From Patescibacteria group bacterium (GTDB lineage: Bacteria > Patescibacteriota > Minisyncoccia > Phycocordibacterales > Phycocordibacteraceae), in NCBI GenBank assembly GCA_004296925.1, contig SCVI01000050.1:1-42966 (forward strand): a stretch of DNA of 42,966 nt, given 5' to 3'. The stretch's first letter is position 1. Every line of letters begins with the position of its first letter. Below, piece by piece: positions 11,893-22,923 of this stretch. The notes beneath the pieces are model-generated. The model was given only the letters and a program-made list of their open reading frames with translations, searched no databases and was not told where the DNA came from. The translations under genes and the position numbers were made by a program.

Positions 11893-12013
11893 ATTTTGGA
11901 TAATACGCCGATATTACTTTTTGTCAACTTGAGTATAGACCAGGAGTTTGCCCTCCTTATCTAGATACAAAATATAATCGCCAGACACTTTCGTGTTGGG
12001 TTGGTTATTTTTG

Positions 12014-12187
12014 TGCGGGATAAAGCGTCGGTCAAGCGCTCGATCGTCGCCGTCGTTCCTTCCTCCGCCTGACCACGTTCGCACCGTCCGCCGTGCTCGG
12101 CGGAAACTGCGGTGCTCGCCTTCGATTCCCTTATCCCGATACAAAATATAATCGCCAGACACTTCCGTGTCTGGCTCATTATTTTTG
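12014..12187 (-). repeat. tRNA-Gly(TCC)-associated element: hairpin + inverted tail + structured GC-rich core + direct tail copy
   Basis: Near-perfect inverted repeat 12121-12162 / 12167-12207 with TTCC loop, its outer arm being the tRNA 3' tail; direct copy of TTATCCCGCACAAAAATAA offset 174 bp from the tRNA end. Confidence 0.8.
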
Positions 12188-12258
12188 TGCGGGATAAGGG
12201 AATCGAACCCTTGCTATCAGTTTGGAAAACTGATGTTCTACCATTAAACTAATCCCGC
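12188..12258 (-). tRNA. tRNA-Gly(TCC)
   Basis: GCGGGATTAGTTTAATGGTAGAACATCAGTTTTCCAAACTGATAGCAAGGGTTCGAATCCCTTATCCCGCA: complete cloverleaf, anticodon TCC, no encoded CCA. Confidence 0.93.
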
Positions 12259-19775: not shown

Positions 19776-19846
19776 CGGGGCGTAGTATACCGGTAGTACG
19801 TCTGCTTTGGGAGCAGATAGACCGAGTTCGATTCTCGGCGCCCCGA
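19776..19846 (+). tRNA. tRNA-Pro(TGG)
   Basis: CGGGGCGTAGTATACCGGTAGTACGTCTGCTTTGGGAGCAGATAGACCGAGTTCGATTCTCGGCGCCCCGA; C1-G72, anticodon TGG, no encoded CCA. Confidence 0.93.
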
Positions 19847-20040
19847 CAAAATAAGGAGACACGTGCGGAGCATTGGGCGACTATATTTTGTCCCTAAGCG
19901 CCGAAAATCGAAGAAAGCCACGCGCGAAGCTTTTCCCGAGCTCGAGGGAAAGTGCGTGGCGCCGTGGTCAGGGGTACTTAGTATTTTGCGAGAGCACGAA
20001 GCAAAATACTAAGTACCGGTGACCGATTCTCGGCGCCCCA
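19847..20040 (+). repeat. tRNA-Pro-associated element: inverted tail, two strong hairpins, direct tail copy
   Basis: Inverted tail 19884-19912 pairs with 19827-19853; 16-bp perfect hairpin 19974-19989/20001-20016; direct copy CGATTCTCGGCGCCCC at 20024-20039, offset 195 bp. Confidence 0.8.
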
Positions 20041-20045
20041 AACAC

Positions 20046-20438
20046 TTAGGATCCTAAGATAATGTCCCTTAGGTGCCTAACCTTGGCGGTTCTCTTTTCT
20101 GTATCCAAATGCACTGCTAGTACATCAAACTGCCATTCACCGTCTATTTCATGTGAAACAAGATATTCTTCTATCACTCTGAGGAGGCGTTTAACTTTTT
20201 GTGGGTGCACATTCTCCTCAGGTCTATATGTTTCATATGGAACACCTCGCTCCCCCATTTCATGTGAAACAGACTTAACCTCAATAAAGCACCAGACTCT
20301 TTTGCTATCGAGTGCGACTATATCAATTTCGCCGTATTTCCTTCTATAATTCTTGTCCTTTATAAAATAGCCTTTACTTTCAAGAAACTCCCGCGCTATT
20401 CCTTCCCCGATGGTTCCTATTTCATTATGCTTAGCCAT
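20046..20438 (-). CDS. yraN: YraN family (UPF0102) endonuclease-like protein
   Basis: GEGIAREFLESKGYFIKDKNYRRKYGEIDIVALDSKRVWCFIEVKS. Confidence 0.93.
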   Translation of the reverse strand: MAKHNEIGTIGEGIAREFLESKGYFIKDKNYRRKYGEIDIVALDSKRVWCFIEVKSVSHEMGERGVPYETYRPEENVHPQKVKRLLRVIEEYLVSHEIDGEWQFDVLAVHLDTEKRTAKVRHLRDIILGS

Positions 20439-20456
20439 GAAGTTTCATAGGGAACG

Positions 20457-20472
20457 CGTTTCACGTGAAACA
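20457..20472. promoter_or_regulatory. parS-like site (ParB centromere-type)
   Basis: CGTTTCACGTGAAACA contains the perfect 14-bp palindrome GTTTCACGTGAAAC (20458-20471); degenerate matches nearby. Confidence 0.65.
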
Positions 20473-20892: not shown

Positions 20893-20901
20893 TTAAATTT
20901 G

Positions 20902-21065
20902 TGCGGGTATCGGGAATCGGTTACAACTCTCGACTCACCCATGTTCGTCTCGGTCGCAACCCCCGCTCACGGTTTTCCGAAATGGAAAACATCGCTCCGC
21001 GCTTCGATCCCCTTATCCAAGCTGAAAACTCAGCTTGAACCCCTCTATAGTTTAATACAGAAATG
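20902..21065 (-). repeat. tRNA-Gly(GCC)-associated element: hairpin, inverted tail, direct tail copy
   Basis: Direct copy CGATTCCCGATACCCGCACA (minus strand) offset 164 bp from tRNA end; inverted-tail-like TTCGATCCCCTTATCC at plus 21003-21018; hairpin CAAGCTGA-GTTT-TCAGCTTG. Confidence 0.75.
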
Positions 21066-21136
21066 TGCGGGTATCGGGAATCGAACCCGAGTCTCGTCCT
21101 TGGCAAGGACGCATTCTACCACTAAACCATACCCGC
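21066..21136 (-). tRNA. tRNA-Gly(GCC)
   Basis: GCGGGTATGGTTTAGTGGTAGAATGCGTCCTTGCCAAGGACGAGACTCGGGTTCGATTCCCGATACCCGCA; anticodon GCC, no encoded CCA. Confidence 0.93.
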
Positions 21137-21258: not shown

Positions 21259-21330
21259 GCTCCTGTGGTGAAATGGATATCATAACTGCCTTCGAAGCAG
21301 TCGTTGGGGGTTCGAATCCCTCCGGGAGCA
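21259..21330 (+). tRNA. tRNA-Arg(TCG)
   Basis: GCTCCTGTGGTGAAATGGATATCATAACTGCCTTCGAAGCAGTCGTTGGGGGTTCGAATCCCTCCGGGAGCA; anticodon TCG, no encoded CCA. Confidence 0.93.
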
Positions 21331-21424
21331 CTCGTATTTGAAAAACCGGCGATATACCGGATTTTTCATGTACGCTCCCGTAGGGATTTGAAAAGTAAAA
21401 AGGAGATTGAATCCCTCACGAAGC
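21331..21424 (+). repeat. tRNA-Arg-associated inverted-tail element in the tRNA-cca spacer
   Basis: CGCTCCCGTAGGGATTTGAA (21373-21392) is the reverse complement of the tRNA tail at 17/20 positions; hairpin TGAAAAACCGG-CGATATA-CCGGATTTTTCA between; degenerate direct copy at 21404-21423. Confidence 0.7.
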
Positions 21425-21447
21425 CCAATTGGAATTCGTATCGTACA

Positions 21448-22923
21448 ATGATTGAAATGAGTAAGTTTATTATTCCAGAAGACGTATTGAAGGTATCTGA
21501 AGGCTTGGAAAGCGCTGGCTTTGAAGCATACCTCGTGGGTGGATGCGTACGTGACCTCATCATCGGAAGAACGCCAAAAGACTGGGACATTACCACAAAC
21601 GCAACACCAGAAAAGATACAAGAAATTTTCCCCGAAACCTTCTATGAAAACATATACGGAACCGTTGGCGTGGTGGGGGAGTCAGAAGACCCAACTCTCA
21701 AAATTATTGAAGTTACGCCGTACAGAAAGGAGGGAACGTATTCAGATGCCAGACGCCCAGACACTGTTGAGTTTGGCGTATCGCTCGAGGAAGATTTGAA
21801 ACGCCGTGACTTTACCGTAAATGCAATGGCGTATAGACCAAAAACAGGGGAGCTGGTAGACCAGCACGGAGGACACGAGGATGCTAAAAAACGACTCATT
21901 AGAGCGGTAGGGGAGCCAAAAGTGCGATTCGAAGAGGATGCGCTTCGCATGATGCGGGGAGTCAGACTATCAGCCGAACTTGGTTTCGCGATAGAACAAA
22001 AAACAGCTGAAGCAATTCACGAAACCTCTGAACAGTTGAGCAAAATTTCAAAAGAAAGAATACGAGACGAACTCATCAGAATTATAGAAACAAAGGAGCC
22101 GATGCAAGCTCTGTTTGTGTCGCAAAAATTAGGACTTTTGAAACACATTTCGCCGAGCCTAGAACACGGTATTGGGATTGATCAAAACCAAGCACATTCC
22201 TTTGATGTGTTTGAACACTTACTCCGCGCACTCCAACATTCAGCAGACAAGGAGTGGCCTTTTATAATCCGACTTTCTGCTCTGTTTCATGACGTAGGAA
22301 AGCCTGCAACGAGAAGATGGTCTGAGGAAAAGAAGGACTGGACGTTCCATGGACATGAAGTGGTAGGGGCAAGAATGACCAGAAAAGCCCTCACTGAGCT
22401 TCGTTTTCCGAGCGAAACAATAGAGAAAGCCACCAACTTGGTTCGCTGGCACATGTTCTTTTCAGACCCAGACAAAATAACTCTTTCAGCAGTGCGTCGT
22501 ATGATTGCGAATGTAGGACAAGAAAACATTTGGGATCTATTAAACTTACGCATATGCGATCGCATTGGAACTGGACGCCCTAAGGAGCAGCCGTTTCGTT
22601 TTAGAAAATATAAATCAATGGTTGAAGAGGCACTTCGCGACCCTGTTTCAGTTGCCATGCTCGCAATTAATGGCGCCGACATCATGAGCCACTTGGATGA
22701 AAAACCCGGACCTCGTATTGGTTGGATGCTTCACGCGCTTCTTGAGGAAGTACTTGAGGATCCAGAAAAAAATACCAAAGAATACCTACTAGAAAAAACA
22801 CGAGTCCTTACTAATCTTGAAGACAAAGTACTTCGTGCCATGGGCGAAGAGGGGAAAGAAGCGAAGGCAGAGGCGGAGGGTGAGGAACTCGCCACCATAC
22901 GCGCCAAGTACCACGTCGACTAA
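21448..22923 (+). CDS. cca: CCA tRNA nucleotidyltransferase / poly(A) polymerase family with HD domain
   Basis: AYLVGGCVRDLIIGRTPKDWDITTNATPEKI, RRDFTVNAMAY, FHDVGKPATR. ORF-track start 21304 lies inside tRNA-Arg and is rejected. Confidence 0.95.
   Translation: MIEMSKFIIPEDVLKVSEGLESAGFEAYLVGGCVRDLIIGRTPKDWDITTNATPEKIQEIFPETFYENIYGTVGVVGESEDPTLKIIEVTPYRKEGTYSDARRPDTVEFGVSLEEDLKRRDFTVNAMAYRPKTGELVDQHGGHEDAKKRLIRAVGEPKVRFEEDALRMMRGVRLSAELGFAIEQKTAEAIHETSEQLSKISKERIRDELIRIIETKEPMQALFVSQKLGLLKHISPSLEHGIGIDQNQAHSFDVFEHLLRALQHSADKEWPFIIRLSALFHDVGKPATRRWSEEKKDWTFHGHEVVGARMTRKALTELRFPSETIEKATNLVRWHMFFSDPDKITLSAVRRMIANVGQENIWDLLNLRICDRIGTGRPKEQPFRFRKYKSMVEEALRDPVSVAMLAINGADIMSHLDEKPGPRIGWMLHALLEEVLEDPEKNTKEYLLEKTRVLTNLEDKVLRAMGEEGKEAKAEAEGEELATIRAKYHVD

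Follow-up and report, generated by a model that had tools for sequence, protein, structure and literature searches.

Small non-coding elements, probably mobile, that occupy tRNA genes of Patescibacteria with duplication of the tRNA tail

Behind many tRNA genes of the patescibacterial genome analysed here lie small gene-free units which, with a probability that we put at about 0.7, belong to a family of non-coding mobile elements specialised on tRNA genes and accompanied by duplication of the target tail. The units are inserted into tRNA genes, the tRNA tail is duplicated on insertion, related units have moved between tRNA genes and a common fold is conserved among them. A fixed ncRNA or an elaborate terminator is thus probably the wrong description of these elements, which fit mobile cassettes with target-tail duplication.

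Anatomy of the elements in the window and its genome

The window, meaning the whole stretch of DNA analysed (42,966 nucleotides), contains the copies and remnant listed below; type A is the commonest core and R1 its covariance model.

19776..19847, + strand: target gene tRNA-Pro(TGG) (ARAGORN; Rfam RF00005 at 61 bits)
19829..19844, + strand: tail 1, the 3' part of tRNA-Pro from C56 and first copy of the duplicated target, 16/16 identical to 20024-20039
19845..19897, + strand: spacer with complementary arms GACAAAATA / TATTTTGTC (sequence; terminator scans)
19898..19912, + strand: inverted tail GCGCCGAAAATCGAA, the mirror of T-arm plus acceptor, ending in GAA, the complement of T54-C56 (sequence)
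19917..19960, + strand: hairpin P2, a variant sequence in which the internal loop GGA/GA, present in the common type A, is missing (sequence)
19966..20024, + strand: hairpin P3, with a GGTCA..TGACC base and a 16-bp perfect apical stem; a type-A P3, common to many other tRNA loci
20024..20039, + strand: tail 2, the native tRNA-Pro tail pushed downstream by the insertion, an exact copy of tail 1 with a post-tail flank homologous to those of the related genomes G005 and G009
20901..21064, - strand: second element, behind tRNA-Gly(gcc) 21065-21136, a regular type A of 38 bits (R1 match at 20907-21014; tail copy at +145, with 14 nt exact)
12013..12186, - strand: third element, behind tRNA-Gly(tcc) 12187-12258, with the recurring anatomy; the same spacer and inverted tail are found again behind tRNA-Gly(ccc)
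21381..21392, + strand: remnant inverted tail of a decayed element behind tRNA-Arg(tcg) 21259-21331 (2 mismatches in 12)

Direct reading of the tRNA-Pro copy confirmed the parts that the sequence-only reading had described, namely the inverted tail TATTTTGTC..GCGCCGAAAATCGAA (19884-19912), GCCACGC (19917-19923) opposite GCGTGGC (19954-19960) with TTTCCC/GGGAAA inside, the 16-bp stem GTACTTAGTATTTTGC (19974-19989) / GCAAAATACTAAGTAC (20001-20016), the enclosing GGTCA (19966-19970) / TGACC (20020-20024) and a distal tail copy, which is exact (20024-20039 = 19829-19844). The inverted tail GCGCCGAAAATCGAA matches its own tRNA-Pro with 1 mismatch in 12. When folded as RNA, positions 19776-20045 reached -124.6 kcal/mol compared to -85.2 +/- 5.1 for shuffled sequences (z -7.7) and positions 19848-20045 gave a z of -7.0; single-stranded DNA folding of the copy gave z values of -7.3 for the top strand and -6.8 for the bottom strand. 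With R1 this copy scored only about 4 bits and was not recognised, its P2 being divergent. The only matches of the window to the 4227 covariance models of Rfam were tRNAs, and nothing credible appeared on the cores at a relaxed E value.

The earlier suggestion of a structured element, with more structure than a terminator needs, was well founded, as P1, P2 and P3 form a three-way junction with strong compensatory change in homologues (see below). Its further reading as a stable ncRNA found no support: a promoter scan revealed no promoter-like site at the window tRNA-Pro copy, and the hairpin between tRNA and core was terminator-like in 32 of 62 copies from three species. In the window copy itself, terminator scans called no intrinsic terminator in the spacer (19845..19897).

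The pattern is not peculiar to tRNA-Pro but is met again at many other tRNA genes. When the genome from which the window comes (787 kb in 129 contigs) was searched, similar stretches appeared also behind tRNA-Ser and tRNA-Met; with automatic thresholds, an inverted tail was detected in 25 of the 45 tRNA genes and, together with a direct copy of the tail, in 20 of the 45, and about 30 of the 45 were judged by eye to carry an element or a remnant. The order of parts is constant, with tRNA tail 1, spacer hairpin, inverted acceptor plus T-arm ending in GAA, P2, P3 and tail 2, in units of about 100-250 bp without genes inside.

The inverted part is a copy of the T-arm and in many cases of the acceptor as well. 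This one architecture is common to cores of several kinds without relation to each other, among them types A, B and C. Type A reads GAA-n-RNC-GGA-hairpin-GA-GNY-GG-GGTC-GA-hairpin-GT-GACC|GAATCC, type B GAACCGCGGGCCGCAG-hairpin-CGTAGGTTTCGAG-hairpin-CGAGAGGC|GAATCC and type C GAARRYC..hairpin..GTGTACAG-stem-TGTAA-stem|GAATCC.

Some features of the surroundings may be recorded here. A gene assigned by sequence motifs to the CCA-adding tRNA nucleotidyltransferase lies near the element (window 21304-22923), and an encoded CCA is absent from many tRNAs here. Adjoining the tRNA-Pro element, four sequences that closely match parS, the site of ParB (TGTTTCACGTGAAACA), with 1 to 3 mismatches, are clustered within 330 bp (window 20145-20472), and five were found in the whole window compared to 0.36 expected; the cluster suggests an origin-proximal chromosome-partition region.

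Insertion, tail duplication and movement between tRNA genes

In 38 of 40 cases from three species of one genus, the duplicated tail begins at C56/G57 of the tRNA. The duplicated stretch, made of the final 18-19 bases of the gene, has a median of 19 nt and usually ends at C74, and C56 is often identical with the last base of the core; a minority of elements are located at the acceptor end (72|73) instead. An empty site was found in G009, where tRNA-Gln(ttg) continues straight into AGTGCACACGAAT.., the sequence that follows tail 2 in G005, with both flanks 97.7% identical over 174 nt at offset 0. Further empty sites were detected in close species at Pro(cgg), Gly(gcc), Val(cac) and Thr(ggt). A test for RNase P/Z cleavage had been suggested for the distal tail copy of the tRNA-Pro element; because sister species have the empty site, this copy is best read as a target-site duplication produced by insertion, and not as a place of such processing. 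As in tRNA-targeted integrative elements, the tRNA gene is restored and a displaced tail fragment is left behind.

At Pro(cgg) of G005 the encoded CCA is in the displaced tail 2 and absent from tail 1, and therefore tail 1 ends at C74. A general loss of the encoded CCA on insertion was also considered, and discarded: single cases were suggestive (Pro(cgg) and locus L254), but the overall effect was not significant (p 0.25).

Orthologous tRNAs of three congeneric species carry unlike cores. At tRNA-Trp these are B, C and, behind a GIY-YIG gene, a remnant of B; at tRNA-Tyr, C or B; at tRNA-Arg(gcg), an unclassified core, C or B; and at tRNA-Pro(tgg) the core is different in each of the three, with the site empty in G006. 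Conversely, related cores are present on different tRNAs (53 pairs), such as Arg(gcg) of G005 and Glu(ctc) of G009, 95.6% identical over 68 nt with mirrors that differ at 3 of 12 positions, or Glu(ttc) and Gly(gcc) of G005 (93.3%). At tRNA-Lys an older unit is common to G005 and G009, and each has a separate newer unit between the old one and the tRNA, in such a way that newer units adjoin the tRNA ahead of older ones; at tRNA-Gln, a 41-nt stretch of P3 in the proximal element of G005 is the same as that of an older distal remnant in G009; and tandem units were found at L249. Empty sites, unlike cores at one tRNA and like cores behind different tRNAs therefore identify these units as mobile non-coding cassettes.

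The mirror, that is, the inverted tail, usually agrees in sequence with the tRNA that it accompanies, with 1.8 mismatches of 13 to its own tRNA compared to 4.3 after shuffling (lowest of 1000 shuffles, 3.7). There are exceptions: the Gly(ccc) element has its spacer and mirror in common with the Gly(tcc) element, and at tRNA-His of G005 the mirror and tail 2 match another tRNA-His gene, the tRNA in front having been exchanged. The latter mismatch speaks against a function of the element in maturation of the neighbouring tRNA, and from both exceptions the mirror is seemingly dispensable for tRNA function. We propose that it serves movement, as a folded recombination arm or as a guide.

In two congeneric species (L239 and L229), clearly unlike tRNA-His(gtg) genes occupy one position with an almost identical flank, pointing to replacement of the tRNA gene in situ. 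Behind a tRNA-Pro of G004 (L083), mini-units are arranged in tandem, each made up of an acceptor tail, an intrinsic terminator and an inverted acceptor, with different terminator hairpins between the same ends, and fragments of tRNA-Gln (GACAGTAGGACAGAGGCCTTTGAAGCCTT) are repeated downstream of tRNA-Gln(ttg) in two species (L178 and L228).

Conserved fold and distribution

The two core hairpins, together with the stem formed by inverted tail and tail (P1), make up a three-way junction. The covariance analysis of homologues that had been suggested for the tRNA-Pro element revealed compensatory changes. Type A was aligned from seventeen cores of ten genomes with the hairpin tips trimmed, an internal duplication in one of the seventeen rows (Gln of G000) having been omitted by hand; 93.9% of the cells were paired, two-sided change was present in 14 of 22 pairs, and covariation was 0.545 compared to 0.187 in shuffled and at most 0.116 in slid alignments. 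As both strands of P1 derive from tRNA tails, its covariation is partly trivial, an excuse that does not hold for P2 and P3. Among the pairs of P2 and P3 in 61 distinct copies, 742 were Watson-Crick, 23 G-T and 2 A-C. Given so few wobbles, the tRNA-sense strand is the folding strand, and their rarity leans towards DNA over RNA as the folded form, without amounting to proof.

Matches to R1 were detected in 42 of 61 relatives (22 of 27 genera) and, among 287 genomes sampled from the whole phylum, in 33, of which 22 lie outside the class, with at most 15 copies in each. The inspected loci were located within 300 bp behind a tRNA gene of the same strand in 33 of 40 cases, and some copies had no detected tRNA nearby. 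The complete anatomy was found also at loci outside the class, none of which had been used for the model.

Viruses were examined as carriers and discarded: the 22 matches of viral contigs to the type A pattern were all due to chance, none of them with a hairpin or behind a tRNA, and the type B pattern gave 0 matches in viral contigs. No phage or plasmid match to the elements was found.

Another small repeat family near tRNAs consists of a 40-bp perfect palindrome, GGTCTAGTATAATTATGCTATAGCATAATTATACTAGACC, and slight variants with compensating changes, which were seen about +230 behind tRNA-Lys, tRNA-Ile and tRNA-Val (L014, L019 and L024) and near 1863-1900 of L004.

Proposed movement, competing explanations and known systems

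Recombinase, Y1/RAYT and GIY-YIG genes were compared with the elements in 61 genomes, and none was identified as the mobilising enzyme. Tyrosine recombinases were mostly present as one Xer-like gene per genome, and their number was uncorrelated with copy number; no integron integrase of the IntI type was found associated with the array, and the units, being gene-free, encode no integrase of their own. No larger gene-carrying or autonomous version came to light at the loci examined, of which 1.5 kb was inspected. Counts of genes and elements were correlated with rho 0.42 for Y1/RAYT and 0.49 for GIY-YIG, both values being uncorrected for phylogeny.

RAYT/Y1 transposases were rejected as movers, since they have their own, different terminal palindromes and genomes with as many as 17 copies lack them; in 7 of the genomes with elements there is no Y1 gene, and the flanks of 16 RAYT loci contained no element and mostly unrelated palindromes. 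Most of the RAYT-like genes inspected (L148-L163) have their own short perfect palindromes at both ends (e.g. TGGGTTTACGAAACCCA), of several kinds per genome. Homing by GIY-YIG endonucleases as the general mover was attractive in G000, where 3 of 3 small GIY-YIG genes lie beside tRNAs, but elsewhere these genes were, by eye, mostly not near elements. In two species (L102 and L066) a small GIY-YIG endonuclease gene adjoins tRNA-Trp, on opposite sides of the tail copy.

As to the mode of movement, insertion takes place between T-loop positions 56 and 57 (TTC|GAA) with duplication of the stretch to about C74, so that the tRNA keeps an intact 3' end as tail 1 and the native tail 2 is moved downstream. 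The element probably moves as a folded single strand, most likely of DNA with tRNA-sense polarity, single-stranded DNA being favoured over RNA for the folded intermediate, and the handling enzyme would be supplied in trans. The inverted tail may help to choose or to join the matching tRNA gene, like the R arms of attC or the end guide of IS200/IS605.

An RNA-borne element could give a similar outcome. A sense RNA made of inverted tail, P2 and P3 would pair through the inverted tail with the coding strand of the tRNA gene and a reverse transcriptase would copy it in where the two strands are cut at staggered positions (56/57 and 74/75), leaving an 18-bp duplication as a SINE or a guide-bearing group II intron might. 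Target duplication and the fixed 3' end suit target-primed copying, the fold contains tandem G.A motifs, it is the tRNA-sense strand that folds and cores turn up behind new tRNAs. However, about half of the copies have the terminator-like hairpin between tRNA and core, the window copy has no promoter that was found, and G-U pairs are rare for an RNA, and we consider this route unlikely.

More improbable still is a cis-acting RNA that controls or protects tRNA maturation, in which the inverted tail would block the tRNA when it engages tail 1 and free it on switching to tail 2. The usual match of mirror and tails to the adjacent tRNA and the conserved structure would agree with it, but the presence and type of element vary among close species at one tRNA, empty sites exist, tRNA-His of G005 is followed by the mirror and tail 2 of another tRNA-His gene, and there are the copies without a detected tRNA nearby. 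We give marginally less credit yet to scars that the host would have made without a mobile element, by slippage during replication and by quasipalindrome template switching at the hairpins of tRNAs. Local sequence is indeed copied in the tails, the mirrors and, in some cases, the terminators (L255; Asp; Gly(tcc)), and tandem units exist; the cores, in contrast, are not local sequence, and one conserved fold is present across the phylum and behind different tRNAs.

If mobile cassettes are the right reading, insertions have, repeatedly and recently, rebuilt the 3' end of roughly every second tRNA gene in some of these small genomes, and the elements offer a defined, testable recombination site at T-loop 56/57, a new family of folded substrates with covarying structure and an enzyme to be sought. 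Annotation is affected too, as a tail copy or hairpin that follows a tRNA in this phylum should not be called a terminator, a tRNA fragment or an ncRNA gene. Only tentatively, and with odds somewhat against it, would we speak of a new class of mobile DNA, made of enzyme-free non-coding single-strand cassettes whose target is chosen by mirror pairing with the T-arm, which insert at TTC|GAA, rebuild the tRNA by tail copying and have in this way colonised numerous tRNA genes in many bacteria within a single phylum.

A family with this combination of features is apparently undescribed, no published description of such elements having been found in the open-licence literature, and in its working parts it is similar to attC sites, tRNA islands and hairpin repeats. 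Like REP/BIME repeats with their RAYT, and like the mitochondrial double-hairpin elements of Allomyces, the elements are small, non-coding and made of hairpins, and they spread within a genome. They differ from REP/BIME in being site-specific in tRNA genes with tail duplication, the RAYT genes here carrying other palindromes; the same site-specific insertion and tail duplication would set them apart from the Allomyces elements. With integron cassettes, whose attC sites are used by IntI as folded single-stranded hairpins, the likeness, which is not membership, lies in end-to-end units at a fixed primary site with the newest adjoining it, and in mutually complementary recombination arms around variable hairpins. 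In contrast to integrons, no integrase or cargo gene was found with the elements, many tRNA genes take the place of one attI, and the arms are tRNA T-arm sequence instead of RYYYAAC/GTTRRRY. Genomic islands and prophages targeted to tRNA genes use tyrosine integrases (Islander class; PMC4383910). The elements share with them a target in the 3' part of the tRNA, a restored gene and a displaced tail fragment, but are gene-free units of 100-250 bp, present by the dozens per genome in different tRNAs and with an inverted tail inside.
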